64,000 bases of DNA. Origin: a bacterium. GTDB taxonomy: Bacteria; Pseudomonadota; Alphaproteobacteria; SP197. The notes beneath the pieces were generated by a model. It did no database searches and had not been told where the DNA came from. It saw nothing but the letters and a program-made list of their open reading frames with translations. Position numbers and translations under genes: made by a program. Where the stretch lies: assembly GCA_028821455.1 (NCBI GenBank), contig JAPPGE010000060.1, positions 62,001 through 126,000 of the forward strand. The letters are read 5' to 3'. Shown one piece after another: positions 15,242 through 58,640 of the stretch (position 1 is its first letter; the number at the start of each line of letters is the position of its first letter).

Positions 15242-15295
15242 GGTCTGCCTTCCCATTGTTCCGCAACTCTCGGGCGCCCGGTCTGTCGGGCCGCA

Positions 15296-16655: not shown

Positions 16656-16744
16656 CAATTGTCATGCTAGTCTTCCGGATCGAACATCCACTGCACCTGA
16701 GGTGCCTGCCCTTGGATCCTACTTGGGCAAGGAGCATGAAGATC

Positions 16745-16987: not shown

Positions 16988-17388
16988 TGGCGTTCGTGCC
17001 CGACGCTTCGCTGGCAGCTCAATGGGTGCTGCCGGACGAGGAGTCTGCGTTGGCCGATCTTGCCCTTGATCGACTGGTGACGGAAACCGCAATGGTACCG
17101 GGATTGTTCTGGCACGAGATGCGCAACCTCCTGTTGTCGGCTGAGCGCCGGGGGCGGATCGAGACACGTCACGTCGACAAGTCCATGGCGCGGCTTCGCC
17201 GTCTTCGCATCCGCTGCACGGATGACACCGATGACCGTGATGTCATGGAACTGGCCCGCGCCTATCGCCTTACGGCCTACGATTCGAGCTATCTGGCTCT
17301 CGCGATCCGCGAAGCCTGTGCGCTCGCGAGCCTGGACCGGCGCCTGAACGAGGCAGCAGCGGCCGAAGGCGTAACGCCGTTCGCCTGA
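16987..17388 (+). CDS. vapC: PIN-domain toxin, VapC family
   Basis: VPDASLAAQWVLPDEES (acidic D), FWHEMRNLLLSAERRGR, YRLTAYDSSYLALAI; overlaps antitoxin stop. Confidence 0.87.
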   Translation: MAFVPDASLAAQWVLPDEESALADLALDRLVTETAMVPGLFWHEMRNLLLSAERRGRIETRHVDKSMARLRRLRIRCTDDTDDRDVMELARAYRLTAYDSSYLALAIREACALASLDRRLNEAAAAEGVTPFA

Positions 17389-17491
17389 ACCGGGACATGG
17401 GTCAATCTGACGCTCCGTTCAGGCGCCGGTGCACTGAGACACATCCCGGAAACCAATGACATCAGCCTGCGGAGGCTCCTGTCGCCGCATG

Positions 17492-17838
17492 CCTTCCGTC
17501 GATAGACTGCGGGCTGGCGCTGGTGACGAAGGAGTGGCAATGGCGGACTTGCCGGGAACCGCGCAGGTGGCGTTCTTCAGCGGGGGCGACGCGGGAGCCT
17601 CGTGCCTCGATTACCAGGCACGCGCCGGCTTGACCGACCGCCTGCTGCTCAAGAAGAACCAACTGACCGCCGGTGTGACCTGGCATGCGGCCATCTACGC
17701 ACCGACGTTCGCGGCCGGCTGGTCGATCATGGACATGCAACACTGCTCGGCCGAACTCGAACGCCGCCTCGCTGCGGTGGTCGACCATCCGATGAACATT
17801 CGCGTGACGGAATCGTTCCGCCTGGCGCACTCCGGGCC
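17492..17838 (+). pseudogene. Degenerate 5' fragment duplicated from the FAD-GcvT gene at 31.3 kb (upstream leader plus first ~115 codons)
   Basis: Reading frame MPSVDRLRAGAGDEGVAMADLPGTAQVAFFSGGDAGASCLDYQARAGLTDRLLLKKNQLTAGVTWHAA...SWSIMDMQHCSAEL vs [68 protein letters not shown]...SWSVMNMQRYSAEL; ends abruptly at RLAHS. Confidence 0.88.
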
Positions 17839-19188
17839 ATGACCAGGCTCTATCACGACGCGATGTACGATCCCGCGCGCCCGCTGGACAGCTACTGGGA
17901 GGCGAGCGCCGGTGAACCGGTGGCCGACTGCGATCCCGTCGAAGGCGACATCGAATGCGACGTCGCCGTTGTCGGAGGCGGTTTCACCGGCCTCTCGGCA
18001 GCTCTCCACCTCGCCCGCGACGATGAGGTCGCCGTCAGGGTGATCGAGGCCGTGGCACCCGGCTGGGGCGCTTCAGGCCGCAACGGCGGGCATTGCTGTT
18101 TCGGCGGCGCCGGTCTCGATCCCACCGAAATTGAGGACCGGTTCGGCGAGGAAACGGCCCGGCGGAACATCGCCGTCCAGCGCGAGGCGATTGACCTCGT
18201 CCACGATCTCGCGACCGCCAACGGACTCGATATCGACATGCAGGGCCAGGGCGAGCTCTGCGTCGGCCACAACGCCAAGGCGCTGGCCGGGCTGCGGGAC
18301 GAAGCCGCCATGTGGAAGCGCCTGGGTGGATTCGACTGCGAGATGCTGAGCGAGGGCGCCATGCGGGAGCGCATGTTCGATGCCCCCAATGTCGCGGGCG
18401 GCATGCTCTTTCCCTTCGGCTTCGGCCTCCATCCTTTGAAGTATGCCCGGGGCCTCGCCCGGCTTGCCCAGAGGCACGGCGTCAGGATTCATGGCGAGAG
18501 TCCGGTTCTGGGATGGCGGCGCGAGAACGGCCTGCACAGGCTGGAGACGCACCGCGGCTCGGTGGTGGCGCGCAAGGTTCTGATCGCAACCAACGGGTTC
18601 ACCCGCGACGGCCTCCATCCGGCCGTGGACGGCTGCCTGCTGCCAGCCATCTCCGAGATCGTCGCCACGCGGCCGCTGACCGACGACGAACTCGCGCGCC
18701 ACCGCTACCAGGCCGGCATGCCGCTCTATGACAAGAGGCCCTTGTTCGCCTATTTTCGCGTCCTGCCGGACAGGCGCATCCACATGGGCGGGGCCGGTGG
18801 CACGACCGGCAGCCCCGCATCGAAAGAGCGCTGGCGTTCCTTCCTGACCCGGCGCATCGCAGAGGTGTGGCCGGAATGGCGAGACGTGGAGGTCGAGTAT
18901 TGCTGGCGTGGATTCGTCTGCCTGTCGAAGGACAGGCTGACCCACGTCGGTGCGGTCCCGGACGATCCCGGTGTCTTCTACAGTCTGGCCTACCACGGCA
19001 ACGGAGTGGCCATGGCGACATGGTCCGGCCGGGCTGTGGCGGGCTTGATCTCGGGCCGCTCCAACCGTGCCCTGCCGGCGACCATGACCCAGCCGCTCAG
19101 ACCCTTTCCGTTTCCGGCCCTCCGCAAACTCGCGCTCTACCGCCGATACGGCGGAGGGATGCTGCGGAGCATGCTCGCACGCGGTTGA
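17839..19188 (+). CDS. FAD-dependent oxidoreductase, gamma-glutamylputrescine oxidase (PuuB)-like
   Basis: CDVAVVGGGFTGLSAALHLA (GxGxxG), GWGASGRNGGHC, HMGGAGGTTG, YHGNGVAMATWSGRAVAGLI. Confidence 0.85.
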   Translation: MTRLYHDAMYDPARPLDSYWEASAGEPVADCDPVEGDIECDVAVVGGGFTGLSAALHLARDDEVAVRVIEAVAPGWGASGRNGGHCCFGGAGLDPTEIEDRFGEETARRNIAVQREAIDLVHDLATANGLDIDMQGQGELCVGHNAKALAGLRDEAAMWKRLGGFDCEMLSEGAMRERMFDAPNVAGGMLFPFGFGLHPLKYARGLARLAQRHGVRIHGESPVLGWRRENGLHRLETHRGSVVARKVLIATNGFTRDGLHPAVDGCLLPAISEIVATRPLTDDELARHRYQAGMPLYDKRPLFAYFRVLPDRRIHMGGAGGTTGSPASKERWRSFLTRRIAEVWPEWRDVEVEYCWRGFVCLSKDRLTHVGAVPDDPGVFYSLAYHGNGVAMATWSGRAVAGLISGRSNRALPATMTQPLRPFPFPALRKLALYRRYGGGMLRSMLARG

Positions 19189-19276
19189 TCCCGTCCCGTT
19201 GCCGCTCCGCTTTCCATTCAACGGTCAGGCTGATAACACATGCCGCGTTCGCGTCGCTGCGGCAGGGGGGCGGATC

Positions 19277-20524
19277 ATGTTCAAGGGTTCGAGTGCGAAG
19301 GAGACGAATCTCAAGTTTTGCACGCCCGAACCGGAGATCGTCTTCTCGCTGGACGAGTACTGGACGCGGCTCCGGCGCACGCGCGAGGCCATGGAGACGG
19401 CGGGGATCGACCTTCTCTATCTGACGGCGCCCGAGAGCCGCTACTACATCAGCGGCTTCAATTCCGACTGGTACCAGGCCCAGAGTCCGGAAGATTGGCA
19501 TCCCTTGAGCGGGGTTGCGGTCAAGGCGGACACCGACAGGTTCATCACCTTCGAACGGGACGTCAACGAAGTGCTCGTCCGCCTGACGACGGTGGGCCAC
19601 GACGCCCGGATCCGCGCGGGCTCGGACGAGCGTCCCATGCACCGGTTCATTGTCGATCATCTGCGCGACGAAGGGTGGCTCAAGGGCACGGTAGGGCTCG
19701 AACTCTCCAACTATCGGCCCAGTCCCGCCGTGAGCCGGATGATCGAGGTCGCTCTCGAGGAGCAGGGATGCAAGGTGGTCGACGCCACCGATCTCCTGCG
19801 CAGGATCCGATCCGTGAAGTCGCCGCAGGAACTCGCCTATGTGCGGACGGCGGCGAAGATTGGCGATATCGGGATCCGCGCGGCGATCAACTCCATGCGG
19901 CCCGGCATGACCGAGCTCGATGTCTACGCCGAGATGGTCCATGCGATGGCCAAGGCAGGCGGCGAACATTCCGGAAAGACGCCGAGTGTCGCATCGGGCC
20001 AGAAGACGCTGTGCACCGACGCACCGACAACGCGGCGCAAGATCATGCCCGGCGAGATCGTCAACATCGATATCTGCGGTTGCTACAACCGTTACCACAC
20101 CAACTTCGCCCGCACCTTCTCCATGGGCCAGCCGCACCCCGAGGTCGCCCGGCGGGTCGCGGCCTCGGCCAGGGCCTTCGATGTTCTCGCGGAAGCGATC
20201 AGGCCCGGCGTTGCCGTCAACGAGGTCACCGGCTCCGTGAAGGCCTACTACCAGGAGGCAGGCATCTGGGAGGAACGCTGGTGGGTCGGCGGCTACGAGA
20301 TGGGCATCGCGTTCCAGCCCGACTGGGTGGGACCCTATGTCTACGACCCCGATGTCGATGCGGAGGGGCGGGAGTTTGTCCCCGGCACGGTCGTCAACTA
20401 CGAGAGCGACTTCTTTCTGCCCCAGTTGGCAGGCCTCTCCCTCGTCATCGACACGATGGCGTTCAGCGAGGCGAGCGCCGAACTCCTGCACGACGTGCCG
20501 CCGGACCTCATCGTGATCGAGTGA
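19277..20524 (+). CDS. M24 (creatinase/aminopeptidase P) family protein with apparently substituted metal-ligand positions
   Basis: Pita-bread-type layout: YISGF N-domain, TRRKIMPGEIVNIDICGCYNRYHTNFARTFSMG, GGYEMGIAF, GTVVNYESDF, LVIDTMAF. Confidence 0.82.
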   Translation: MFKGSSAKETNLKFCTPEPEIVFSLDEYWTRLRRTREAMETAGIDLLYLTAPESRYYISGFNSDWYQAQSPEDWHPLSGVAVKADTDRFITFERDVNEVLVRLTTVGHDARIRAGSDERPMHRFIVDHLRDEGWLKGTVGLELSNYRPSPAVSRMIEVALEEQGCKVVDATDLLRRIRSVKSPQELAYVRTAAKIGDIGIRAAINSMRPGMTELDVYAEMVHAMAKAGGEHSGKTPSVASGQKTLCTDAPTTRRKIMPGEIVNIDICGCYNRYHTNFARTFSMGQPHPEVARRVAASARAFDVLAEAIRPGVAVNEVTGSVKAYYQEAGIWEERWWVGGYEMGIAFQPDWVGPYVYDPDVDAEGREFVPGTVVNYESDFFLPQLAGLSLVIDTMAFSEASAELLHDVPPDLIVIE

Positions 20525-42892: not shown

Positions 42893-43897
42893 TTACTGCG
42901 CGGCCTTCACCTCGTTCCAGACACTTACCCGGCGGTCGAAATCCTCAACCGGGCGGAGCCACACCAGCTTGTCGGCGTAATCGAGTCCGGGACTTTCGTT
43001 GGTCGTGTTCCCGTATCCGTTCTTTGCGGTCATGGCCGGGCCCGTCTCGCCGTTGAGATAGTGATTGACCCACTGATGGGCGCACTCGGAATCCTGCACG
43101 CCCTTGGAGAGAGCCCACGTGTCGAGCCAGCCGATGCCACCCTCGTCCGGAATGGAGTACACCACGTCGTAGCCGCGATTGGCGAGTGCGACGGTCTGGA
43201 ACTCGCCCATCGAGAACATCAGCGTTGCTTCGCTGGAATCCCACATGTTCACGCCTTCCTCGAATCCGGCGTAGTAGCTGATGAGGTATTGCTTCTGCTC
43301 GATCAGCTTCATCTTGACGGATTCGAAGTCGGCATCACTGAGATTGAATGGATCCGCGAGTCCAAGAACGATTGCCGCGTTGGTCACGTTGTTGTTGGCA
43401 TCGTCGAGCGCGAGCACGTGTCCCGCGTTCTCGGGGCTCCACAGGGCTTCCCAGGAACTGACCCCGTCCGGAAACGCTTCCTTGTCGTAAATGAGACCGA
43501 GCGAACCCCAGGCGATCGGGACTCCGTAGGTTTCGCCTCCACTCATGACTTCCGCCACCGCGCTGAACGCGGGAAGCAGGTTCGAGGTGTTGGGAATCTG
43601 CGACATGTCGAAGGGAATGATCAGACCCTGGTCGAGGTAGCGCTCGACGATCGAGGTATCGATCGAGACAAGGTCGTAGTCGGCGCCATCACTTCCCACC
43701 ATCTTGGCGAACATTTCGTCCACCGACCCGGTGTAAGCCACGTTTACCTCGCAGCCCGTGGCCGCGGTGAAGGGCTCCACCCATTCCGGTTCTGAATAGC
43801 CTTCGAAGCTGAAGAGCCGGACTTCCTGTGCCGAAGCCTGTGTGCCCGCGGCCAGAATGAGCGCCGCCGCCAGTTTCCATTCAAGCGATCGAAACAT
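42893..43897 (-). CDS. Extracellular solute-binding protein, PotD-like
   Basis: Signal MFRSLEWKLAAALILAAGTQASAQEVRLFSFEGYSEPEWVEPFTAATGCEVNVAYTGSVDEMFAKM. Confidence 0.88.
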   Translation of the reverse strand: MFRSLEWKLAAALILAAGTQASAQEVRLFSFEGYSEPEWVEPFTAATGCEVNVAYTGSVDEMFAKMVGSDGADYDLVSIDTSIVERYLDQGLIIPFDMSQIPNTSNLLPAFSAVAEVMSGGETYGVPIAWGSLGLIYDKEAFPDGVSSWEALWSPENAGHVLALDDANNNVTNAAIVLGLADPFNLSDADFESVKMKLIEQKQYLISYYAGFEEGVNMWDSSEATLMFSMGEFQTVALANRGYDVVYSIPDEGGIGWLDTWALSKGVQDSECAHQWVNHYLNGETGPAMTAKNGYGNTTNESPGLDYADKLVWLRPVEDFDRRVSVWNEVKAAQ

Positions 43898-44612
43898 GGT
43901 TCATCTCCCAATTATCCGTTTCGTTTTGGTCCTCCGGCCGGTCTTGCGAAGACGACCACCAGCCGGCGATGTGTTCGCGCAGCACCGATGCCAGATCCGA
44001 GGGATCACCCACGGCCAGAAAACGGCGAAGTTGCTCGTGCTGCACGACGACGGCGTCGAGGTCCGGATGGCTGCGGATCTCGAGTCCGAAGATGATGAGA
44101 ACCTGGCGCGAGATGCCTTCCCAGATGCCAAGTCCCAGTGAGTGTCCTGCTACCGAAAGGGCGGCCCGGTGAAACTCGACATCGGCGCGCTGGACCTGCT
44201 CGACATGTCCATCGGCAGCGCCCTTGCGCATCACGTCCAGGGCCTTGTCGATCTCCGCGAAACGGGAGGGATCGGCGCGCAACCGGGGTATCGTCCCTGC
44301 AAGCAGCAACGTCTCTAGCGCGATGCGCACACTGCACACCTCCCGGATCTGGCGATCATCGAAGGCAGCGACCTTCCAGCCTCGACCCGGAGAGGAGTTC
44401 ACGATCCCCTGCAACCAGAGTTCGCGCATGGCCTCGCGGATCGGAACACGGCTCACGCCGAACTCCGCGGCGAGACTCTCCTCGACGAAACGGTGACCGG
44501 GCGGAAACGCCCCGATGGCGATCGCAACGATGAGCCGGTCGATGACCTCGTCGGTAACCAGGCGTCTGCGAATCGGCGTGATCGGAGCCAGCCCCTGACC
44601 TCCCGCTTGCAT
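43881..44612 (-). CDS. GntR-family (FadR/FCD) transcriptional regulator
   Basis: RRRLVTDEVIDRLIVAIAIGAFPPGHRFVEESLAAEFGVSRVPIREAMRELWLQGIVNSSPGRGWKV wHTH. Confidence 0.88.
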   Translation of the reverse strand: MQAGGQGLAPITPIRRRLVTDEVIDRLIVAIAIGAFPPGHRFVEESLAAEFGVSRVPIREAMRELWLQGIVNSSPGRGWKVAAFDDRQIREVCSVRIALETLLLAGTIPRLRADPSRFAEIDKALDVMRKGAADGHVEQVQRADVEFHRAALSVAGHSLGLGIWEGISRQVLIIFGLEIRSHPDLDAVVVQHEQLRRFLAVGDPSDLASVLREHIAGWWSSSQDRPEDQNETDNWEMNHVSIA

Positions 44613-44637: not shown

Positions 44638-44683
44638 GACAGGTAAAGCAAGATGGACGACCTTCATAGGGAAGGGGTTGAGA

Positions 44684-45583
44684 ATGCCGTTCGGGATCAT
44701 CCGCCACGTTGCTGCCGCGGCCCATCTGGGAGAGGCGCCGCTGTGGCTTCCGACGTCCGGCGTGTTCCTGTGGCTCGATCTTTACGGCCGCGAGGTGCAC
44801 CGCTTCGACCCGCAAACCGGAAGCGACCGGGTGATCGCGAGCGGCTATGCCGAGAACCTCGCGTGCCTAGTGCGCCTGAACGACGGGTTCGTGCTGCTTG
44901 TGACGGCGACGCGATTCATGCGCCTCGACCCCTCAAGCGGTGGCACTACTCCTCTGCCGGCGCCGCTCCGGCCCGCCGCAGGCACCTGCTTCAATGACGG
45001 CAAGGTCGCGCCCGACGGGGCCCTCTGGCTCGGGATTTCGGATGTCGAGGAGGTCGAGCCGACCGGTTCGCTTCACCGCGTGAGCGCCTCTGGTGTCGAG
45101 TGCATTGACCGGGGCTTTGTCGTCGCGAACGGGCCGGCGTTCTCTCCGGATGGCAGGGGCGCGTACTTCGCCGATACCGTGAGCGGCCGCATCCTCCGCT
45201 ACGCTCTCGACACCGAAGGCCGGCCCGTCGGGCGCACACTGTTCGCGGCTGTCCCGGCCGACAGGGGCATGCCCGACGGCATGACCACTGACCGCGACGG
45301 ACGCCTCTACAGCGCCCATTGGCAGGGCAACTGCATCAGCGTCCATGACGCCGGCGGCACGACGGTGGAGACGATCGCGCTTCCGGCCGCCAACATCACA
45401 TCCTGTGCCTTCGGAGGCGACGACGGCTCGCTGCTCCTTGCGACCAGTGCGGCCCGGGACGATGACGGCGGTCCCAGGTCGCCGCACGGCGATGCGTTCG
45501 TGCTCCGTGACCAGTCCAGGGGAACGCCGGAACCTGAGTTCGATCCGGCCTGGCTCGGAAGGGAACGCCCTTCGGGGCCTTGA
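44684..45583 (+). CDS. SMP-30/gluconolactonase-family protein
   Basis: LGEAPLWLPTSGVFLWLDLYGREVHRFDP, FNDGKVAPDGALWLGI, ANGPAFSPDGRGAYFADT, PDGMTTDRDGRLYSAHWQG. Confidence 0.88.
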   Translation: MPFGIIRHVAAAAHLGEAPLWLPTSGVFLWLDLYGREVHRFDPQTGSDRVIASGYAENLACLVRLNDGFVLLVTATRFMRLDPSSGGTTPLPAPLRPAAGTCFNDGKVAPDGALWLGISDVEEVEPTGSLHRVSASGVECIDRGFVVANGPAFSPDGRGAYFADTVSGRILRYALDTEGRPVGRTLFAAVPADRGMPDGMTTDRDGRLYSAHWQGNCISVHDAGGTTVETIALPAANITSCAFGGDDGSLLLATSAARDDDGGPRSPHGDAFVLRDQSRGTPEPEFDPAWLGRERPSGP

Positions 45584-45615: not shown

Positions 45616-46683
45616 TCAACGATCACGATGCGTGTAGGCCCGGGTCAGGCGGTCCTTGAGGTCAGAGACGAAACCGGTCGTCAGGACGGCATCATGGGCT
45701 ATGGAATGCCAGAGTCCGACCTGGTTGACATAGGACCGCATCGTCATCAGGCCCTCCTCGAGCTGGTCCCACGTCAAGCCCATCGCCTCGGGGCGAATGT
45801 CGAGACCGATGCCCGAGATTGTATCGAGCATCTCCTCGGCTCGGTCACCGTGCAGCATCGAGCCGACGATGACGCCGAGGCACACGGGCTGGCCGTGGAG
45901 GAACTTTTTCCCTGTCAGTTTCTCCAGTGTGTAGAAGAGGAAGTGGTCGGTTCCCTCGATGTGGCGGGGGCACCACCCCGACCCGTGATAGCTCGTGCCC
46001 CATTTGAGGCCGTCGGCCAGTGCGTCGATGCCGCGGTCGTTCATGGCGCGGATGTTGTCGACGTTCTCGACGACCGTCCTGACCTTCGCCAGGGACTGCC
46101 TCGCCAGATTCCCGTCGAACCGCCACTTTTCCTCGATCTTCCCTTCCCTCTCGGCGTAGCGCCAGTCCAGAACCCCGGTGTGAAAACAGAGGATGTCGCC
46201 GATTCCCGACCAGTTCAGCGCCGGTGGGCAGCCGGCAAGAACGTCGTAGTCGATGTAGATGGCCTGCGGCACGGCCCAGCCGCGATAGACGACCCGCCCG
46301 TCGAGCCGGACTCCCGAGCGCTGGCCGTAGACGGCATTCACCGAAAGGGCCGTCGGCGCCTGGAAGAGCGGCAGGTTCAGGCGCCACGAGAAGTACTTCG
46401 CGACGTCCAGCGCCTGGCCTCCGCCAAGCCCGACGATGGCGCGCACTTCGCCGAGGCTCGCGGCCTCGCGGTCGAGGTCGGCCTGTTCGATCGACCCGCA
46501 GAAGTAGGGCCTGCAGTCGGCGCCGGCAAAATGACGGGAGAAGAGCGGCCAGAGGTCGTCCATCGTGACCACGAGGAAGGGTGGATTGACGAAATGGCGA
46601 AACTCGTCCAGCAAGCCGCGACCGAACACGGTCGGAAAGCCGTAGGCAAGATCCCGGGCGTGATCGTGAGGCAAATTGGTCAT
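45616..46683 (-). CDS. Iron-containing alcohol dehydrogenase / sn-glycerol-1-phosphate dehydrogenase-like (paralog B)
   Basis: VGLGGGQALDVAKYFSW, GDILCFHTGVLDW, HIEGTDHFLFYTLE, HGQPVCLGVIVGSM (D/H/H metal ligand pattern). Confidence 0.82.
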   Translation of the reverse strand: MTNLPHDHARDLAYGFPTVFGRGLLDEFRHFVNPPFLVVTMDDLWPLFSRHFAGADCRPYFCGSIEQADLDREAASLGEVRAIVGLGGGQALDVAKYFSWRLNLPLFQAPTALSVNAVYGQRSGVRLDGRVVYRGWAVPQAIYIDYDVLAGCPPALNWSGIGDILCFHTGVLDWRYAEREGKIEEKWRFDGNLARQSLAKVRTVVENVDNIRAMNDRGIDALADGLKWGTSYHGSGWCPRHIEGTDHFLFYTLEKLTGKKFLHGQPVCLGVIVGSMLHGDRAEEMLDTISGIGLDIRPEAMGLTWDQLEEGLMTMRSYVNQVGLWHSIAHDAVLTTGFVSDLKDRLTRAYTHRDR

Positions 46684-46779
46684 CTCCCGTGCCGGAGGTC
46701 AGAGGGTGCCGCGGCGTCTCCGCCAAAGAAGGACAAACAGCCGCCCCGTTCGCCGGCACCGTTCAAGGGTCTGTCCGTG

Positions 46780-47991
46780 TTACGGGTCTGCATCTCGGTT
46801 CCCCGACCAGCCCAGGATCGCCGCCTCACGGCTGCGCTTGACATCGCTCCAGCCCTGGCGGCAGCCATCGCCCCGTGTCCGGAAGCGGTCGGCTTCCTCC
46901 CGGATTGCGGCGGCCACCAGAGCGGCTTCCGTGTCGGTCAGATTGCAGGGGTCGAGATAGAGTTCCTGTCGCTCGACGAGATCGTCGCGCACCACGATGC
47001 TGGGGGTCCTCCCGGCAAGCCGGGCGGCCAGTTCCCAGGCATGGAAACCCGCGGTCCGGGGCGCGATGGTAATGCGGACCCGGGTAATCGGGTTGCCGGT
47101 CCAGTCGGCATGGCTGGCGATGCGGACGCCAGGCATGTCAGCGAGTTCGCGCATCCAGAAGGCGACGCGTGCCTCCTCGGTCTTCCGGGCGGCTTCATGA
47201 TCGCGTTTCTCCCACAGTTCGAGTGCCGCCATGGCGCCAACGACGCTCTCCTTGCCCGCTTTCATCGTCCGCCCGATTCCACGGTGCTGAAGATAGGTGG
47301 CGCGGATGAGATCGGAGCTTCCGGCCACGATTGCGCTGGTGACTCCCGACAGGAACTTGTGGCCGGAATGGATCACCGCGGCTGCACCGAGTTCGATGGG
47401 CCGGGTCAGGTCGTACTCGGCGGCCATGTCGACGATCACCGGCACGCGATGGTCGCGGCACAGGTCGATGAAGACATCCATGGGAAGTTCGTTTTCGCGC
47501 ACGGTATGGTGCGAAACGACGTACATGGCCGCCGCCGCCCCCCCTGCCAGAGCGTCGGCCAGGTGCCAGGTTTCGCAGGCTGCAGCGGTGCCTACGGGAA
47601 CGACCTCGGCTCCGGCAAGGCGGATCGCCTGATCGATCGGCGCTCCATAGTTCACCATGTGTCCCATGGGCAACAGGACACGCCGCTCGCCGGCCACGCA
47701 AGGCAGAGCCTCGATCCTTGCAAGGTCTGCGCCGGTGAGGCACGCGGCGACCGTTTGCGTCATGGCTGCCGCGGAGCACGAAGCGATGCACCCCGCCTCG
47801 GCCCCGGTCACGCGTGCGATGACGGCGCCTGCGCGTGACTGCAGTTCGTCCATGTCGACGAAGGACGTGAGGATCCGGTCGACGCACGCACGCACGTCCG
47901 GGCGAACCCTCGAAGCGCCGATGCGCGTCATCGTCCCGGAGACGTTGATGACCGGAGTGAGCTGCCATCGGGTGAAGGGGTCGTCTGTCAT
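46780..47991 (-). CDS. SelA-like / D-glucosaminate-6-phosphate ammonia-lyase-like PLP-dependent enzyme
   Basis: INVSGTMTRIGASRV, CIASCSAAAMTQTVAACLTG, VIVDMAAEYDL, AAVIHSGHKFLSGVTSAIVAG (PLP Lys). Confidence 0.8.
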   Translation of the reverse strand: MTDDPFTRWQLTPVINVSGTMTRIGASRVRPDVRACVDRILTSFVDMDELQSRAGAVIARVTGAEAGCIASCSAAAMTQTVAACLTGADLARIEALPCVAGERRVLLPMGHMVNYGAPIDQAIRLAGAEVVPVGTAAACETWHLADALAGGAAAAMYVVSHHTVRENELPMDVFIDLCRDHRVPVIVDMAAEYDLTRPIELGAAAVIHSGHKFLSGVTSAIVAGSSDLIRATYLQHRGIGRTMKAGKESVVGAMAALELWEKRDHEAARKTEEARVAFWMRELADMPGVRIASHADWTGNPITRVRITIAPRTAGFHAWELAARLAGRTPSIVVRDDLVERQELYLDPCNLTDTEAALVAAAIREEADRFRTRGDGCRQGWSDVKRSREAAILGWSGNRDADP

Positions 47992-49031
47992 GGAAGCCGT
48001 TCTCCGGTCGTGCTGTCGAATGCGTGCAGCCGGTCCGGCCGGAGTGCCAGTGACAACGTCTCGCCGGCACGGACCATACCGCGTATGTCGCCGCTGGTTC
48101 GAACGGTCAGGCGCGCACCACGGGCATTGCTGAGATGGACAAGCGCCTCGTGTCCGAGGTCCTCGATTCTGTTGACGCGTGCCTCGCCAATCGGGACCGC
48201 GCCTTCGGCCGACCCGATCAGGAGGTGCTCGGGCCGAATACCGAGCGTCGATCCACAGCCGCGATCGACCGTCGTTGAGGCGTCGCCGAGAAGGTCCTTC
48301 GCGTCATGGAGGTTCATGCGCGGACTGCCGATGAAACCCGCCACAAAGGTGTTCGCTGGCCGTTCGTAGAGTTCGGTGGGAACACCGACCTGCATGATCC
48401 GGCCCTGGTTCATCACCGCGATCCGATCACCCATCGTCATGGCCTCGACCTGATCATGAGTCACGTAGACCGTCGTGGTTGTCAGCTGGCGCTGCATCTC
48501 GGAGATTTCACCCCGCATCTGAACCCTGAGTTCCGCATCGAGATTGGACAGCGGCTCATCGAAGAGGAATGCATCCGGCCTGCGAATCATGGCGCGCCCC
48601 AGGGCAACACGCTGCGCCTGGCCACCCGAAAGCTGGCGAGGCTTCCGGGCGAGCAGCTCGCCGAGACCCAGCATGTCGGCGACGCGCTCGACCTCGCTCC
48701 TGACGGTGGCGGGATCGGTCTTCCTGATTCTCAGTCCGAAGGAAAGATTGTCGCGCACCGACATGTTCGGAAACAACGCGTAGGACTGGAACACCATCGA
48801 GATGTTGCGCTGGGCGGGAGAGAGATGGTTGACGCGTTCGCCGCCAATCATCAGGTCGCCCGACGAGATGGTCTCGAGACCTGCGATCATCCTGAGCGTG
48901 GTCGACTTGGCGCAGCCCGAGGGACCGACCAGTACCATGAACTCTCCCTCGCGGACGTGGAGGTCGAGGCCGGAGATGACCTTGACATCGCCGTAGCTCT
49001 TCGCGACGTCCAGAAATCGGATGTCTCTCAT
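47988..49031 (-). CDS. ABC transporter ATP-binding protein, UgpC/MalK family
   Basis: LVGPSGCAKSTTLRMIAGLETISSGDLMIGG, LSGGQAQRVALGRAMIRRPDAFLFDEPLSNLDAELRVQMR. Confidence 0.92.
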   Translation of the reverse strand: MRDIRFLDVAKSYGDVKVISGLDLHVREGEFMVLVGPSGCAKSTTLRMIAGLETISSGDLMIGGERVNHLSPAQRNISMVFQSYALFPNMSVRDNLSFGLRIRKTDPATVRSEVERVADMLGLGELLARKPRQLSGGQAQRVALGRAMIRRPDAFLFDEPLSNLDAELRVQMRGEISEMQRQLTTTTVYVTHDQVEAMTMGDRIAVMNQGRIMQVGVPTELYERPANTFVAGFIGSPRMNLHDAKDLLGDASTTVDRGCGSTLGIRPEHLLIGSAEGAVPIGEARVNRIEDLGHEALVHLSNARGARLTVRTSGDIRGMVRAGETLSLALRPDRLHAFDSTTGERLP

Positions 49032-49543
49032 CGGAATGCGTTCCAGTCCGGGGAAATCGAGACGATCGCATCAATCTCGACGGTGATGTTGCCGGGCAGG
49101 GATGCCATGCCAACGGCGGTGCGCGCATGCCTGCCCCGTTCGCCGAAGACATCGCAAAACAGGTTCGAGCAACCGTCGATGACCGCCGGGTGATCGACGA
49201 AATCGGGTCCGGCATTGACCATGCCGAAGACGCGTCGAATCTGCACGACGTGTTCAAGCGAGCCAAGGATTTCCCTTATCGCTGCGATCAGCACGAGCCC
49301 GGTTCTTTGCGCGTGGTGGAACGCCTCATGGACCGGAACGTCGAGCCCGACCTTGCCCGTCGCCAGCCTGCCGCATTCCAGGACCGGCCCCTGGCCCGAC
49401 AGATAGAGTGTTGTGCCTTCGATGGAGCCCAGATCGAAGTTCCCGACAGGCGCGGGGACCGGGGGGACGACATGGCCAAGTTCGGCGAGCCGCCGGTCCG
49501 CGATGCTCTCCGGTCCGGCCGTTCCGCGTCGTCGTGTGTTCAT
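49028..49543 (-). CDS. Rid-family (YjgF/YER057c/UK114) protein
   Basis: FDLGSIEGTTLYLSGQGPVLECGRLATGKVG...EAFHHAQRTGLVLIAAIREILGSLEHVVQIRRVFGMVNAGPDFVDHPAVIDGCSNLFCDVFGERGRHARTAVGMASLPGNITVEIDAIV. Confidence 0.87.
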   Translation of the reverse strand: MNTRRRGTAGPESIADRRLAELGHVVPPVPAPVGNFDLGSIEGTTLYLSGQGPVLECGRLATGKVGLDVPVHEAFHHAQRTGLVLIAAIREILGSLEHVVQIRRVFGMVNAGPDFVDHPAVIDGCSNLFCDVFGERGRHARTAVGMASLPGNITVEIDAIVSISPDWNAFR

Positions 49544-50583
49544 GCGACAAAGGCTCCCTCGATCCTGTTTCGGGCAGCGGTCAGGAACTCTTCCGTCACG
49601 TCGAAGTCGTTGGCGATACCGTAGGCGAGGCCTTCACGCTCGACGAAGGTTCTCAGTCCGCGCATGGCTTCGAAGACGTCGCGCCACGTCACGTTCATGG
49701 CGGCAGGGCGAATGTCGAGGCCGAGACGGATCACCGCGCCAAGCAGTTCGTCCACACGCTGATCGTGCATCATGGCGCCCAGCACGAGACCCAGACACAC
49801 TGCCTGGCCGTGCAGGAACGCTTTCCCCGTTCCCGCTTCGAGGGCATAGAAGATGTAGTGCTCGATGCCTTCGATGTGGCGCGGATTCCAGCCCGCACCG
49901 TGATAGGAGGCGCCGCCCCATCTCAGGCCGTCGACCAGAATCCGGATGCCACGCGGAGAAAGCATCCTGATTTCGTCAAGTTCGGCCAGTGCCGTCTCGG
50001 CCTTCGCCAACGAGATCGCGGCGAGACTATCATCGTAAGGCCATCGCGATTCGCATTTGCCCTGGGCCTCGGCGTGACGCCAGTCCATGACGCCGGTGAC
50101 GAAGCACAGGACGTCGCCGATGCCGCCGATGTTGAGCGCTCGGGGTGCGGACCTGATGATGTCCAGATCGATGTAGACGGTCTGCGGGACCGCCCACCCG
50201 ACATACCTGACGACGCTGTTCTCCCGGACTCCCGCACGATGTCCGAAGACGGCATCGACGGAAAGCGATGTCGGAAACTGGAAGAGCGGCAGGTTGCGAC
50301 GCCAGGCGACATACTTCGCAGCATCGATCGCCTGACCACCTCCCAGACCGACAACCGAGGCGACGTCCGCAAGCGCCTCGAGATCGGCTTCCAGCGCAGC
50401 ACGTTCCATGGAACGCACCATGTAGGGCATTGCATCGTCCGGCAGGGCGTCGCGAAAGAGGGGCCAGAGATCCTCCATCGTCACGACCAGCATGGGCGGA
50501 CACACGAAGTTCGCCGCTTCGCAAAGGAGGTTGCGTCCGAAGACTGTCGTGAACTGCGGGATATCGAATTCCTTGAACGGCAT
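49540..50583 (-). CDS. Iron-containing alcohol dehydrogenase / sn-glycerol-1-phosphate dehydrogenase-like (paralog A)
   Basis: VGLGGGQAIDAAKYVAWRRNLPLFQFPTSLSVDAVFGHRAGVRE, GDVLCFVTGVMDW, HIEGIEHYIFYALE, HGQAVCLGLVLGAM; colinear with paralog B. Confidence 0.82.
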   Translation of the reverse strand: MPFKEFDIPQFTTVFGRNLLCEAANFVCPPMLVVTMEDLWPLFRDALPDDAMPYMVRSMERAALEADLEALADVASVVGLGGGQAIDAAKYVAWRRNLPLFQFPTSLSVDAVFGHRAGVRENSVVRYVGWAVPQTVYIDLDIIRSAPRALNIGGIGDVLCFVTGVMDWRHAEAQGKCESRWPYDDSLAAISLAKAETALAELDEIRMLSPRGIRILVDGLRWGGASYHGAGWNPRHIEGIEHYIFYALEAGTGKAFLHGQAVCLGLVLGAMMHDQRVDELLGAVIRLGLDIRPAAMNVTWRDVFEAMRGLRTFVEREGLAYGIANDFDVTEEFLTAARNRIEGAFVA

Positions 50584-50586
50584 GGT

Positions 50587-51444
50587 TCAGCCCTTGACTG
50601 CGCCAAGGGACAGCCCCTTGACGATGTGTTTCTGCGCGGCGACGGCGAACAGCAGCATCGGCACGATGGCAACGATCGACGCGGCGGTCATCGCACCCCA
50701 GTCGAGCGCAGCATAGCCGCGAAAGCTCGTCACTCCGAGCGTGACCGTCTGCGCCCTGGAGAACGTCAGCCCCAGTGCGATGGCAAGTTCGTTCCAGATC
50801 CAGATGGCGTTCAGGACGGCCGTAGCGGCCATCCCGGGCAAGGTACAGGGCACGTAGATTCTCGTCAGGATCTGCCAGTTGGAAGCGCCTTCGATGCGCG
50901 CGGCCTCGTCAATGGCCGGATTGATCTCGCGGAAGAACGAACTCAGGAGCCAGATCGACAGCGGCAGGACATGCACCTGGTACATGAGGGCAAGGCCGAC
51001 ATGGGTGTCATAGAGTCCGGTCCACTGATAGAGCGAGAACATCGGAATGACGAAGAGAAATTCGGGAAGCATGTAGGCAAGGATCAGCCAGACGCCGACG
51101 AGGTTCCTGCCTCTGATCTTCATGCGGACGATGGCGTAGGCCGTCGGAATGGCGATGGCGAGCGACAGTGCCACGCCGATGGCCGTGATGATGACGGAGT
51201 TCAGGAACGTGTACTTGAACGTTTCATGGCCCCAGAGCTTGAGGTAGTTGGCGGTTGTCGGATCGAAGATCCATAGCGGAGGGCTGGCAAGGCCGTCGCG
51301 CCTGGTCTTGAGCGAGACCGTCAGCACCCAGTAAACCGGGAACAGACTGAACAGGACCATGGCGCCGGTGAAGACGTAGGCCCACGCCTTCGAGAGGCCT
51401 GTTCCCGGACCGCCGTGGAAATGCAGGGTCGTGCGCGCCGTCAT
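50587..51444 (-). CDS. Carbohydrate-type ABC transporter permease (UgpE/MalG-like)
   Basis: Multi-TM protein; EAARIEGASNWQILTRIYVPCTLPG EAA loop. Confidence 0.9.
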   Translation of the reverse strand: MTARTTLHFHGGPGTGLSKAWAYVFTGAMVLFSLFPVYWVLTVSLKTRRDGLASPPLWIFDPTTANYLKLWGHETFKYTFLNSVIITAIGVALSLAIAIPTAYAIVRMKIRGRNLVGVWLILAYMLPEFLFVIPMFSLYQWTGLYDTHVGLALMYQVHVLPLSIWLLSSFFREINPAIDEAARIEGASNWQILTRIYVPCTLPGMAATAVLNAIWIWNELAIALGLTFSRAQTVTLGVTSFRGYAALDWGAMTAASIVAIVPMLLFAVAAQKHIVKGLSLGAVKG

Positions 51445-52322
51445 GCGTCGCGTTCACCGCGGCGCTGCAGCGCCTGCAAGGTGAGGGAAATGACGAGAAT
51501 CAGGATCGAGAACAGGATCATCGTCGCCATCGCCTTGCCGATTTGTTGATAGCTGTAGGCGGTGCGGTAGACAAAGGTCTGCACGACTTCCGTTGCCAGG
51601 GCCGGTCCGCCACCGGTCGTGCCGAAGACGATGTCGAAGACCTTCAGGGTGTCGATGGCGCGGATGATGATGACGGTGATCAACAGCGAACGGAGCATCG
51701 GCAGCTTGATGGACCAGAAGATGGTGAATTCGCTCGCACCCTCGACGCGGGCAGCCTCGACCGGCTCCGCCGGCAGGCTTCGCAATCCGGCGAGCATGAT
51801 GATGAAGACGAAGGCGGTCTGCCACCAGACATCGACCGCGACGATGGACGCCATCGCCGTGTCGGCGGCGCCATAGAATGCCGAAGGACCGAGGCCGAAC
51901 GCGCCGATCAGATGGTTGATGATGCCGAGGAAGGGATCGAACATGACCTTCGACATCAGGGCGACAACGATGCCGGAAACCATGAGCGGCAACATGATGA
52001 CCGCGCGGATGAGGTCTGTCCGGATAGCCAGTTTGTCGACCTGCACCGCGAGGTAGAACCCCAGTGCGGTCTCGATGGCTGTTGCCCAGGCGGCGAACAC
52101 CACCGTGTTCTTGATGACGCTCCAAAACTCGGCGTCGGCGAGGAGGTTGGCGTAGTTCGCCCAGCCCACCAGTTCGAACTGGTTGCCCCAGTTCCAGTTG
52201 GTGAATGACACCGCCAGTCCGAACCCGACGGGGTAGACGGAGGTGAACGCGAGAACCAGGAGACAGGGCAGGACGAACCAGAAGGCCGAGGCGCTGCCAA
52301 GGAACCTGAGCGCAGACGTCAT
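51441..52322 (-). CDS. Carbohydrate-type ABC transporter permease (UgpA/MalF-like)
   Basis: Multi-TM protein; VEAARVEGASEFTIFWSIKLPMLRSLL EAA loop; start MTSALRFLGSA. Confidence 0.9.
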   Translation of the reverse strand: MTSALRFLGSASAFWFVLPCLLVLAFTSVYPVGFGLAVSFTNWNWGNQFELVGWANYANLLADAEFWSVIKNTVVFAAWATAIETALGFYLAVQVDKLAIRTDLIRAVIMLPLMVSGIVVALMSKVMFDPFLGIINHLIGAFGLGPSAFYGAADTAMASIVAVDVWWQTAFVFIIMLAGLRSLPAEPVEAARVEGASEFTIFWSIKLPMLRSLLITVIIIRAIDTLKVFDIVFGTTGGGPALATEVVQTFVYRTAYSYQQIGKAMATMILFSILILVISLTLQALQRRGERDA

Positions 52323-52407
52323 GGCGCTCTCCGGACCGGAAAGCAGGATGAACTCTCCGGAAAGATGCCCCGGATGGCAGCAAGTTGCCATCCGAGACGA
52401 GGCACGT

Positions 52408-53775
52408 TCAGTTGGCGAGCATTGTCTCGAAGTCGGCCTGAGCCGAGGCGCCGGCCTCGGCAGGGTCCGCACCGCCATAGATGTCCTGAATCACATCGAC
52501 GATGCGCAGTGCGAACTCGCTCCAGCCGGCACGCTGAACGACGGAAGTCTGCGAGTTCGGCATGGCCGCTGCCACGGCTTCGACATAGGACTGCGGGAAG
52601 CTCGCCGCGTACTCGGGATCCTGCCACGTCGACAGGCGCGGGGCGCCGCCGTGCAACTTGCCGATGGCGGTCGCGTTGTCGGTGTTCGACATGTACTGGA
52701 TGAAGAGCCAGCCAGCCTCTGGCGATGCGGCGTTTTGCGGAATTCCGAAACCCCATTGCCAGTGGGCCGTATAGGGCTCACCGTCGGCGTTATCGACAGG
52801 AATGACCGAGTAACCGATCTTGCCGGCGACAGGGCTGTCGTCCGGGTTCTCGAAGCCGGGCGCGAAGAGGCTCGCGTCAATGAAGAACGCCGCACCGCCC
52901 GCCATGAAGAACTGCGAGGCGTCGGGCCAGTCCATGGCCTGGATGTTGACGGGACCGGCTTTCATCAGCTCCGCATAGTTCGCGAGGCCCCGCACGATGT
53001 CGGGATCGTTCATCTTCGGCTTCGACCAGTCGCCATCGAACCAGACGTTTTGGGGAGCGGAGCGGTCCGCCGCGCCGACCGAGTTGTTGACGAAACCGGT
53101 GACGGTATCGATCAGCGTGTCCGAACGGATGCCACGCAGCACGGCGCCTGCGATGGCGCCCCCGCTTTCCTCCTTAACCTCGCGCGCCGCAGCGATCAGT
53201 TCTGCCATCGTCGTCGGCATCTGGCCGTCGAGATACTGGTTCACGTGATCCATGTTGGCGAACAGGATGTAGGTCTCGAACGATGCCGGGATACCGTGGT
53301 ACTCCCAGCGGCCGTCGATGTCGTACCTGGTTGCATCAAGGAAGCCTGCCGGGATGTCGTCCAGATTGTAGTCCGGAGCCGTGAGATCAGCGCTGTCGAT
53401 GAAGTCCTGCAAGGAATGGACGAGGTCATTGGTGTGCTGGGTGTAGGCCGTGGAGTCCATTGGCAGGAAGTAGACGTCCATCTGCGAGTTGCCACCCGAG
53501 CCGCGCAGCGCCACTTCCATGCGGTCGAAGTAGAGATCTTCGGCCATGGTCTGCAGGGTGACGTCGATTCCGGTGTCGGCCTCGAACTGGTCGAGCACCA
53601 CACGCACGCCGTCCGTGACAGGATGTTCCGGCATCATGACCGTGATCGACTCTCCCGAAAGCTGGTCCCACGAAAATTCGGCCGCAGCAATCGTGGTACT
53701 GACGGCAAGGGCCACCGACGATGCGGTGGCCAGCTTGGCCGCCCTGACAAGGGCTCCTCGCCGAGATGTGTTCAT
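52408..53775 (-). CDS. Extracellular solute-binding protein (family 1, UgpB/MalE-like)
   Basis: Leader MNTSRRGALVRAAKLATASSVALAVSTTIAAAE then SITVMMPEHPVTDGVRVVLDQFEADTGIDVTLQT; AFFIDASLFAPGFENPDDSPVAGKIGYSVIP. Confidence 0.9.
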   Translation of the reverse strand: MNTSRRGALVRAAKLATASSVALAVSTTIAAAEFSWDQLSGESITVMMPEHPVTDGVRVVLDQFEADTGIDVTLQTMAEDLYFDRMEVALRGSGGNSQMDVYFLPMDSTAYTQHTNDLVHSLQDFIDSADLTAPDYNLDDIPAGFLDATRYDIDGRWEYHGIPASFETYILFANMDHVNQYLDGQMPTTMAELIAAAREVKEESGGAIAGAVLRGIRSDTLIDTVTGFVNNSVGAADRSAPQNVWFDGDWSKPKMNDPDIVRGLANYAELMKAGPVNIQAMDWPDASQFFMAGGAAFFIDASLFAPGFENPDDSPVAGKIGYSVIPVDNADGEPYTAHWQWGFGIPQNAASPEAGWLFIQYMSNTDNATAIGKLHGGAPRLSTWQDPEYAASFPQSYVEAVAAAMPNSQTSVVQRAGWSEFALRIVDVIQDIYGGADPAEAGASAQADFETMLAN

Positions 53776-53978: not shown

Positions 53979-54671
53979 GTGTCGATTGCCTTTGATGTGA
54001 CCGACCGCGTGTATCGGGAGATTCGCGATCTCCTGCGTTCGGGCGACATCCTGCCTGGCCAGAGACTGCCCAACGAGCGCAAGCTGGCCGAGATGAGGGG
54101 AGCCACCCGTACCCAGGTGCGCGACGCGCTTCTCATGCTCCAGAAGGAAGGGCTGGTCGAACGCAAGATCGGCAGCGGCACCTACCTTTCCGAGCGTGCG
54201 CCCCAGATCATCGAATTGGCAGACGCGGCGGTCCACATGTCGCCCGAGCGCTCCCACGGCTTCCATGAGACCCTGGAGGCACGGTTGCTCGTCGAACCGT
54301 CGGTTGCGGCACGTGCCGCCGAAGCGCCGACGCCGCAGTTCTGCGAGGATCTCGAGGCGGCGCTGGAACGCATCCTGGCGGCACCTACCTGGCTTCAGTT
54401 CAAGGAAGACATCTACGGGTTCTCACGCCTCTACTACGTTGAGGCGGGCAACGACTTCCTGTGCTGGACCTTTGATGAGATCGTGTCCGCCCGTCGTGCG
54501 AACAAGTTTGACGGCGGGAGTGACCAGGCACCGGTGGCCAACATTGTCCGCAAGCATTTCCACGACCGTCTGTCGAAGATTGCGGATGCCATCACGTCCG
54601 GGGACCCCCAACGGGCAAGAGCCGAAGTGGAAAGCTTCCTCGTCGCAATGGCCGCTTCATTGGCGCTCTGA
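53979..54671 (+). CDS. GntR-family (FadR/FCD) transcriptional regulator
   Basis: VTDRVYREIRDLLRSGDILPGQRLPNERKLAEMRGATRTQVRDALLMLQKEGLVERKIGSGTYL. Confidence 0.9.
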   Translation: MSIAFDVTDRVYREIRDLLRSGDILPGQRLPNERKLAEMRGATRTQVRDALLMLQKEGLVERKIGSGTYLSERAPQIIELADAAVHMSPERSHGFHETLEARLLVEPSVAARAAEAPTPQFCEDLEAALERILAAPTWLQFKEDIYGFSRLYYVEAGNDFLCWTFDEIVSARRANKFDGGSDQAPVANIVRKHFHDRLSKIADAITSGDPQRARAEVESFLVAMAASLAL

Positions 54672-56409: not shown

Positions 56410-57357
56410 ATGAGTCGCATCGTCAGGGTAGGAGCCGCGCAGATGGGTCCCGTGGCGCGCCACGAAAGCCGCGGCGCGGTCGTCGACCGCCTGATCGCAC
56501 TGATGCGGCAGGCCGGTGAGACGGCCTGCGATCTGGTGGTCTTTCCGGAACTCGCGCTGACATCCTTCTTTCCGCGCTGGCTCATCGAGGACGAGGAGGA
56601 GATCGACTCCTGGTTCGAGGACGAGATGCCGGGTACAGAAACCGGACGCCTCTTCGACGAAGCAGAGAGACTGGGCATCGCCTTCCACCTCGGCTATGCG
56701 GAGCGCACCCGGGAGAACGGCGGTATCCACCGCTACAACACGTCGATACTCGTCGACAGTTCGGGCGGGATCATCGGCAAGTACCGCAAGGTCCACCTGC
56801 CGGGGACGGCGGAACCGATCTCGGACAATCCCGGTCAGCATCTCGAGAAGCGCTACTTCGAGGTCGGCAATCTCGGGTTTCCGGTCTTTCCCGCCTTCGG
56901 CGGTCTGATCGGCATGTGCATCTGCAACGACCGGCGCTGGCCGGAGACCTACAGGGTCATGGGCCTCCAGGGCGCCGACATGATCGTGCTCGGCTACAAC
57001 ACGCCCGTGGGACTGGACGCAGAACCGCCCGAAGCCGCGGCGTTGGCGCCGTTCCACAACCACCTGGTGATGCAGGCGGGTGCCTATCAGAACGCCTGCT
57101 GGGTCGTCGGCGTGGCCAAGGCGGGGCACGAGGAGGGTTACGACATGATCGGACAGTCGGCGATCATCGCGCCCACGGGAGAGATCGTCGCCATGTGCCG
57201 CACCTTCGCGGACGAGCTCGTCGCCCATGACTGCGATCTCGATGCGGGGAAGCACAGCCGGGACACGGTCTTCAACTTCGCGGCCCACCGGCGCACGGAG
57301 CACTACGGCCTGATCGTCGAGCGCACCGGTGTCGGTCCGCGGATGGCGCCGCCGTGA
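56410..57357 (+). CDS. N-carbamoyl-D-amino-acid hydrolase-like carbon-nitrogen hydrolase
   Basis: VFPELALTSFFPRW (Glu), GKYRKVHLPG (Lys), GLIGMCICNDRRWPETYRVMGLQGADMIVLGYNTP (Cys); C-terminal VFNFAAHRRTEHYGLI as in D-carbamoylases. Confidence 0.9.
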   Translation: MSRIVRVGAAQMGPVARHESRGAVVDRLIALMRQAGETACDLVVFPELALTSFFPRWLIEDEEEIDSWFEDEMPGTETGRLFDEAERLGIAFHLGYAERTRENGGIHRYNTSILVDSSGGIIGKYRKVHLPGTAEPISDNPGQHLEKRYFEVGNLGFPVFPAFGGLIGMCICNDRRWPETYRVMGLQGADMIVLGYNTPVGLDAEPPEAAALAPFHNHLVMQAGAYQNACWVVGVAKAGHEEGYDMIGQSAIIAPTGEIVAMCRTFADELVAHDCDLDAGKHSRDTVFNFAAHRRTEHYGLIVERTGVGPRMAPP

Positions 57358-58640
57358 CGGTCTGCGACACGGTGATCGTCGGCGCTGGCCTGGCAGGCCT
57401 CGTGGCCGCCCGCCGGCTGATGGAAGGCAGGCAGTCCTTGGTGGTTCTGGAGGCCCGCGAGCGGACCGGGGGACGTGTCTTCGGCATGGAACGCGGCGGC
57501 CGCGCGATCCAGCTCGGCGGCCGCTGGACGGGACCGGGACAGGACCGAATCAAGGCGCTGGCCCGGGAACTCGGGATCGGGGTGCGGGTGTCCACGACCT
57601 TCCGCGGGGAGGACGTGCTGGACGACGGTCTCCAGGTGGCCGTCCGCCGCATCGACGGCCTCGCTGACGGCGTGCCGCTGGAGGCGCCGTGGCGTGCCGC
57701 GGAGGCCGCCTCCTGGGACCGCGAAACCCTGGCGACCTGGCTCGACCGAGAGGTGGGAGGGAGTGCGGCCAGAACCCTTGCCGGACTCCTGATCGGCTTC
57801 CTCCCCGATCCTGCGGAGTGCTCCCTGCTGCATGCCTTCACCTACCTGAAATCGAACGGCGGGCTGGCCTCAATCATGGGTCTCGACGGTCCGGCCCACG
57901 ACAGCGAACTCTTCGCGGGCGGCGCCCATGCCCTCACGGATCGCCTCGGCCGTGACCTCGGGGAGCACGTCCGCCTGAACTCGCCGGTCCATCGCCTGTG
58001 CCAGGACGCCAGCGGGGTGACGGCCCAATCGGCGAGCGGAGAGGTGAGAGCCCGCCACGCCGTCGTCGCCCTGCCGCCGGTGCTCGCCGGGCGGCTCGCC
58101 TATGATCCTCCCATGCCCGCGCAGCGGGACTACCTGACGCAGCGCATGCCTATACGGGGCAAGGTGGCGTTCGCGGCGCTCTATGCAAGGCCCTTCTGGC
58201 GCGAGGCGAGGGGCACGAGAGCCGCCTCGTCGGAAAACGTCGTCGCCTGGGACGAGGGAGACGAGGGGGATCTTGCCTGCATTGGTGGTCTCTCCTCCAT
58301 CGTCCGGTCCCGCGAGATTGCCGCCCTGCCGGCTGCGGAGCGCCGTGCCGCGGTTCTCGCCGACCTTGCCGCCCTGCTGGGGCCGCTCGCCCGGGAGGTC
58401 GTCTGCTTCCACGCCATCGACTGGGCGGCGGAGCCATGGAGCAGGGGATGCAACAGTTTCCTTGCCACCGGTTGCTGGACCGCCTACGGCCCGGCTCTGC
58501 GCCCGGCCATTGGCCGGATCCACTGGGCGGGAGCGGAGTACGCGGAACGCTTCATCGGCCAGATGGAGGGCGCAGTCAGCACGGCCGAGGGTGCGGCGAA
58601 GAGAATTCTCGACGAAAGTGGAGCGACGGCCGAAGGGTGA
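57354..58640 (+). CDS. Flavin-containing monoamine oxidase-family protein
   Basis: CDTVIVGAGLAGLVAARRLMEGRQSLVVLEARERTGGRVF; C-terminal IHWAGAEYAERFIGQMEGAVSTAEGAAKRIL; overlaps upstream stop. Confidence 0.9.
   Translation: MTVCDTVIVGAGLAGLVAARRLMEGRQSLVVLEARERTGGRVFGMERGGRAIQLGGRWTGPGQDRIKALARELGIGVRVSTTFRGEDVLDDGLQVAVRRIDGLADGVPLEAPWRAAEAASWDRETLATWLDREVGGSAARTLAGLLIGFLPDPAECSLLHAFTYLKSNGGLASIMGLDGPAHDSELFAGGAHALTDRLGRDLGEHVRLNSPVHRLCQDASGVTAQSASGEVRARHAVVALPPVLAGRLAYDPPMPAQRDYLTQRMPIRGKVAFAALYARPFWREARGTRAASSENVVAWDEGDEGDLACIGGLSSIVRSREIAALPAAERRAAVLADLAALLGPLAREVVCFHAIDWAAEPWSRGCNSFLATGCWTAYGPALRPAIGRIHWAGAEYAERFIGQMEGAVSTAEGAAKRILDESGATAEG

Follow-up and report, generated by a model that had tools for sequence, protein, structure and literature searches.

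An alphaproteobacterial operon pairing a DgaE-like pyridoxal-phosphate enzyme with a Rid protein and two glycerol-1-phosphate dehydrogenase-like paralogues: a candidate system for uptake and deamination of an amino-bearing polyol or sugar

The closest described relative of the central enzyme considered here is the D-glucosaminate-6-phosphate ammonia-lyase DGL of the DgaE family, a pyridoxal 5'-phosphate (PLP) enzyme of SelA fold that acts on 2-amino-3-hydroxy acids and for which residue roles have been proposed, namely His163 as proton donor with His162 as its partner, a Schiff-base Lys, a phosphate cluster of Arg301, Arg332 and Arg346, and Arg226 as carboxylate contact (PMC9529869). We describe an operon of eight genes from a 64,000-nucleotide stretch (hereafter the window) of contig JAPPGE010000060.1, belonging to an alphaproteobacterium of the GTDB lineage SP197 (assembly GCA_028821455.1). 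The operon shares with the DgaE/DGL system the PLP enzyme family and, as we read it, the catabolic logic of uptake plus deamination. Unlike that system, in which a phosphorylated substrate follows uptake by a phosphotransferase system, it encodes an ATP-binding cassette (ABC) importer and, in addition, a Rid protein and two dehydrogenases (A and B) resembling glycerol-1-phosphate dehydrogenase (G1PDH). Every operon protein is of a known kind, and we found no account of the combination in the open-access literature on D-glucosaminate, SelA, Rid and G1PDH combinations, in keeping with the original prediction that this is not a described pathway. We tentatively favour, at a little under an even chance, the reading that the operon serves to import and deaminate a polyol or sugar that bears an amino group and no phosphate, and hold with good confidence the broader function class of uptake plus deaminating catabolism.

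The PLP enzyme matched the DGL structure 7lc0 with an E value of 5.8e-60, and scored below the cut-offs of both the DgaE family model TIGR01437 (Table 1) and the D-glucosaminate-6-phosphate ammonia-lyase model NF047797 (252.9 bits, cut-off 600). Active-site mapping showed that all eight operon copies, that of the window and those of the seven further loci described below, retain His162, His163, the Schiff-base Lys (numbered Lys217 in PMC9529869, where counting along the chain gives 213), Arg301 and Arg332, which argues for the SelA-like, DgaE-type elimination enzyme originally proposed. The likeness to DGL does not extend to the remaining two positions. The operon copies form a clade with the rhizobial-type copies linked to Rid, and all 17 members of this clade have Cys in place of Arg346, whereas DgaE proteins, 8t7j and the nearer outgroups L046-L048 have Arg. 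Arg226 is non-basic in seven of the eight operon copies. Because of these two changes, the substrate of the operon enzyme is probably not an aminosugar-acid phosphate. In the tree, the eight operon copies form one group (support 100/100), which is joined to the Rid-linked set (89/94).

The coupling of PLP enzyme and Rid protein that had been predicted from the window is seen again across this sister clade. In nine of nine sister-clade loci the PLP gene has a Rid gene no more than about 2 kb away (eight, L013 and L017-L023, found by tblastn, together with the upstream pair of L012; genome annotation agrees where examined), and in none of the nine outgroup loci examined is there one near it. At L014-L016, L024 and L046-L048 sequence search gave no Rid match, an absence that is weaker for L014 and L016, where little sequence flanks the PLP gene on one side, and the dga-type clusters L067 and L068 have no gene annotated as Rid in their vicinity. 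The Rid protein of the window lies above the gathering cut-off of its Pfam family (Table 1), and its Arg141 and Glu156 are invariant in an alignment of nine Rids; these residues may correspond to Arg105 and Glu120 of Escherichia coli RidA, the active-site pair of imine-hydrolysing Rids. A protein usually regarded as a general clean-up enzyme is thus tied to one PLP-enzyme clade across several proteobacterial genera, so that a dedicated partner reaction becomes testable. The clusters of this kind from rhizobia and their relatives (L013, L017-L021) resemble the window operon in having a sister PLP enzyme with the Arg346-to-Cys change and a Rid gene nearby, and differ from it in their dipeptide-type ABC transporter, in often carrying an amidohydrolase and an IclR regulator, and in having no G1PDH-like dehydrogenases. 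In L012 the operon is preceded, at positions 5-1640, by a second Rid and SelA-like pair (Rid 44% and PLP enzyme 45% identical), and the PLP copy of this pair falls in the peptide-transporter clade of the tree. Genes for an amidohydrolase/deacetylase-type protein recur beside SelA/DgaE-like genes, both in Rid-linked loci (L013, L018, L021) and in DgaE loci (L067, L068), which suggests an N-acyl or ester step shared by the two groups.

By sequence the two dehydrogenases are metal- and NAD(P)-type enzymes, and A shares 52% identity with B. They share with EgsA, AraM and GldA the fold, the three metal ligands (Asp157, His242 and His258, aligned and invariant in both) and the likewise invariant GGG dinucleotide motif. 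They differ from these enzymes in forming a separate paralogue pair and in the substrate-site stretch, which here reads SVDAVFGHR or SVNAVYGQR. The best NCBIfam match of both is the G1PDH model NF002022, at 117.2 and 100.6 bits against a cut-off of 413, and the DGxxSP stretch common to the three G1PDH-type structures aligned is absent from both. An AlphaFold2 model of dehydrogenase A (mean pLDDT 85.9) gave the G1PDH 5fb3 as its best Foldseek match (E value 2.6e-17), with template-modelling (TM) scores of about 0.71 for 5fb3 and 4rfl and of 0.75, on the query, for AraM 9h4x; the protein models well as a G1PDH-fold enzyme. Of the description of the pair as glycerol-1-phosphate dehydrogenase-like paralogues, then, the family (Fe-ADH_2) holds for both and the modelled fold for A, whereas the scores far under the NF002022 cut-off and the missing DGxxSP speak against a closer assignment. 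When glycerol dehydrogenase is aligned, its PTxASTD motif corresponds to PTSLSVD in A and PTALSVN in B, placing Asp in A and Asn in B at the position of GldA residue 121. Asn is also found at this position in the chain of 6csj, described in the PDB as a double mutant of a polyol dehydrogenase that has gained activity as a D-lactate dehydrogenase; its mutations are presumably D121N and F245S. In view of the Asp/Asn difference, A and B are probably not redundant, and the split is a lead toward, not proof of, different substrates for the two enzymes.

The transporter had been labelled Ugp-type, a label that proved too specific. The ATPase passes the cut-off of the UgpC subfamily (Table 1), but the permeases, at 91.8 and 56.3 bits, fall under the UgpA and UgpE cut-offs of 335 and 297, and the solute-binding protein (SBP) has no NCBIfam match and is therefore not assigned as UgpB. 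Profile matches of the SBP included the polyol (sorbitol-type) binder 4rya, the trehalose/maltose binder 1eu8 and 5iai. Its nearest plasmid relatives, 43-45% identical and from Ensifer, Shinella and Aminobacter (L035-L038), sit in operons with GMC dehydrogenase, ROK kinase and SIS genes, and the one SIS protein scanned, that of Ensifer, is nearest to GlmS isomerase domains. These plasmid operons are like that of the window in the SBP (43-44% identity, many shared invariant residues) and in a divergent GntR gene, and unlike it in that their enzymes are wholly different. We read the SBP as a likely member of a family that transports amino sugars or aminopolyols, and the amino-sugar/polyol-type uptake foreseen from the window is consistent with both its profile matches and the neighbours of its 44% relatives.

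The gene set recurs together in other genomes, as a check proposed with the original prediction had asked. Genome contigs were scanned with the PLP protein, and gene order was read from translated comparison; this gave seven more loci with the operon, all in metagenome-assembled genomes (L006-L012). Six of them (L006, L007, L008, L010, L011 and L012) share the window's arrangement of the seven non-Rid genes, the full order being SBP, permease 1, permease 2, dehydrogenase A, (Rid), ATPase, PLP enzyme, (short-chain dehydrogenase/reductase, SDR), dehydrogenase B. The contig of L009 carries the genes from SBP to PLP enzyme and the SDR, and dehydrogenase B was not found on it. The SDR gene, of glucose-1-dehydrogenase type, follows the PLP gene in five of the seven loci (L008-L012) and not in L006, L007 or the window, where a search of the gap between the PLP gene and dehydrogenase B found no recognisable SDR remnant. 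All eight operon genes are under purifying selection, with dN/dS values of 0.06-0.23 between the window and its relatives, and this, together with the order kept at other loci, makes the operon more than a chance assembly.

Matches to the dehydrogenases at the set cut-offs were found in 3 of 41 relatives, 3 of 16 genomes of the order, 2 of 385 of the class and 1 of 399 of the phylum (each of these counts includes the genome of the window), and also in 2 of 298 genomes from the family of genome G757. The dehydrogenases are thus almost absent elsewhere among the genomes sampled, the larger genome groups having been drawn evenly so that this absence is a sampled rather than an exhaustive one. One further copy of dehydrogenase B lies on a 4545-base contig of a genome from another family (L032; G375 contig C17), beside an insertion-element-like gene and accompanied by a lactonase gene and the start of a GntR/FCD gene. 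It may reflect transfer or contamination, and because contamination is possible it was not counted as independent spread. The labels RHO, APA and CAR carried by four of the seven operon loci (L009-L012) fit the sponges Rhopaloeides odorabile, Aplysina aerophoba and Carteriospongia foliascens sampled in PMC8163846; this putative host link, which we infer from the labels, covers L009-L012. Overall, the few genomes in which the cluster was seen appear for the most part to be of marine sponge origin.

Under the favoured reading, the CUT1-type ABC importer would take up an aminopolyol or amino sugar, and dehydrogenase A would oxidise the hydroxyl adjoining the amino carbon. The PLP enzyme would then eliminate the beta-hydroxyl as water to free an enamine/imine, the hydrolysis of which to ammonia and a 2-oxo-3-deoxy product would be accelerated by Rid. 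Dehydrogenase B might act on the dicarbonyl-type product, perhaps re-using NADH from the dehydrogenase A step, and in some lineages the SDR could provide one more oxidation. This particular order of steps is itself distinctly doubtful. A more specialised version is unlikely: a phosphorylation-free, redox-balanced deamination of aminopolyols, in which dehydrogenase A would yield an alpha-amino carbonyl, the PLP enzyme, needing no carboxylate, would together with Rid eliminate water and ammonia, and dehydrogenase B, the paralogue with Asn, would reduce the 2-oxo compound, the whole being specialised to sponge-associated bacteria that feed on an amino sugar alcohol from the host or holobiont. Were the favoured reading correct, the operon would represent a nitrogen-acquisition pathway of sponge-associated bacteria of which we found no description, and it would provide two enzyme leads that can be tested, one being a lyase of DgaE type whose phosphate pocket is altered and the other the two dehydrogenase paralogues, which differ at a substrate-specificity residue.

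Several observations weigh against uptake and deamination of an unphosphorylated aminopolyol or amino sugar. The roles of Arg226 and Arg346 in PMC9529869 are taken from a manual docking model; the ligand of the SBP was deduced from 44% identical relatives of unproven function, and its own AlphaFold2 model is poor (pLDDT 35). The operon has no Rid gene in L008 and L009 and a broken one in L011, and the L008 genome has one distant Rid, outside the operon. Since three of the seven relatives do without an intact copy, Rid is not essential; it is dispensable, an accessory to the operon. Finally, unlike the dga-type clusters (L067 and L068 carry an aldolase), the window operon contains no aldolase, kinase or aldehyde dehydrogenase for a 2-oxo-3-deoxy product; its own genome has one KDPG (2-keto-3-deoxy-6-phosphogluconate) aldolase, on another contig, and a 2-keto-3-deoxygluconate kinase was not searched for.

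The main rival shares deaminating catabolism with the favoured reading and proposes an amino-sugar-acid route, in which an SDR or other dehydrogenase would oxidise, for example, glucosamine to the lactone, a lactonase would convert this to a 2-amino-2-deoxy-aldonate, and the PLP enzyme would deaminate it as DgaE does, though in unphosphorylated form, to a 2-keto-3-deoxy-aldonate. This would suit the known chemistry of DgaE on 2-amino-3-hydroxy acids, and could call upon the SDR gene between the PLP and dehydrogenase B genes of L008-L012, the partial lactonase-like open reading frame (ORF) between SDR and dehydrogenase B in L010, the intact lactonase gene adjoining dehydrogenase B in the window (a Klebsiella dga-type cluster also has a lactonase) and the KDPG aldolase of the genome. 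We consider it possible but somewhat doubtful, as Arg226, the proposed contact of the alpha-carboxylate, is mostly non-basic, the window operon is without an SDR, the lactonase gene is itself next to another, divergent operon, and the two G1PDH-like dehydrogenases would be left with no obvious role.

If instead a plain polyol, glycerol-1-phosphate or a glycerophosphodiester were handled by the transporter and dehydrogenases, with the PLP enzyme and Rid as clean-up passengers, the UgpC score of the ATPase, the G1PDH-like fold of dehydrogenase A and the polyol-binder matches of the SBP would all be accommodated. The lack of a UgpB assignment, the low G1PDH scores with DGxxSP missing, and the retention of the PLP gene under purifying selection in seven of seven other loci make this very unlikely. 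Plain or phosphorylated glycerol is an unlikely substrate, and the original interpretation is upheld in part: of the 'aminated or phosphorylated polyol/sugar acid' first suggested, the amino-sugar/polyol side stands, whereas the phosphorylated or glycerophosphodiester side is disfavoured by an SBP that is not UgpB-like, the loss of one phosphate-pocket Arg and the absence of DGxxSP. An N-acyl or D-amino-acid derivative, with the PLP enzyme deaminating a D-beta-hydroxy-amino acid and the dehydrogenases processing its side chain, is suspected for the sister clade, whose PLP genes sit with a dipeptide-type ABC transporter, Rid and, in several loci, an amidohydrolase/deacetylase. For the window operon, which has neither a deacetylase nor a peptide-type transporter and carries a CUT1 carbohydrate-type transporter instead, it is the least probable of these readings. 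Two other proposals were rejected: uptake of plain glycerol-3-phosphate, there being no UgpB, and a role in amino-sugar biosynthesis, the first genes of the operon being those of an SBP and importer.

Table 1. Features of the operon and its flanks (positions in the window; scores in bits)
Feature	Position	Strand	Evidence or remark
GntR-family regulator, divergent	53979..54671	+	ORF; orthologue also divergent in L006-L010
Solute-binding protein, SBP_bac_1, CUT1 type	52408..53775	-	Pfam SBP_bac_1, 71
ABC permease 1	51441..52322 (likely start 52322; ORF can open at 52478)	-	BPD_transp_1; orthologues align from Met at 52322
ABC permease 2	50587..51444	-	BPD_transp_1
Dehydrogenase A, G1PDH/glycerol-dehydrogenase fold	49540..50583	-	Pfam Fe-ADH_2, 58.7
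Rid-family protein (YjgF_endoribonc)	49028..49543	-	Pfam PF14588, 74.6 (cut-off 35)
ABC ATPase, UgpC/MalK type	47988..49031	-	PRK11650, 435.6 (cut-off 432)
SelA-fold PLP enzyme, DgaE family, ammonia-lyase type	46780..47991	-	TIGR01437, 283.8 (cut-off 385.3)
Gap between PLP gene and dehydrogenase B, 96 bp	46684..46779	-	SDR gene at equivalent place in 5/7 relatives
Dehydrogenase B, paralogue of A	45616..46683	-	Pfam Fe-ADH_2, 50.4
SMP-30/gluconolactonase-like gene, convergent on dehydrogenase B	44678..45583	+	Pfam SGL, 194; operon membership doubtful

The eight ORFs lie in the place and on the strand first predicted, and hidden Markov model searches (Pfam, NCBIfam) bore out the family calls in outline. 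Overlaps of about 4 bp had been claimed for most junctions; exactly 4 bp is found at four of seven (permease 1/permease 2, dehydrogenase A/Rid, Rid/ATPase and ATPase/PLP enzyme), the other three being gaps, of 3 bp between permease 2 and dehydrogenase A, about 85 bp between SBP and permease 1, and that before dehydrogenase B. The predicted GntR gene is indeed present and points away from the SBP gene, and is a likely controller of the operon.

Among the compared loci, the lactonase gene adjoins dehydrogenase B only in the window and its close relatives L006 and L007. It diverges from a GntR/FCD regulator gene lying beyond it, and may belong with that regulator. Beside the operon in L006, at positions 14140-20050, is a second set comprising GntR/FCD, spermidine/putrescine-type SBP-like, enolase-superfamily, permease and SDR genes, the enolase-superfamily protein being nearest to sugar-acid dehydratases; at the corresponding site (42893-44612) the window carries a GntR/FCD gene together with an ORF of 334 aa. 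Downstream of the operon in L010 (16171-21203) are a gene nearest to glucosylglycerate hydrolase and a carbohydrate ABC set. Elsewhere in the window, on the plus strand at 56410-58640, a carbon-nitrogen hydrolase gene is followed by a flavin amine oxidase gene, possibly a second nitrogen-scavenging pair.

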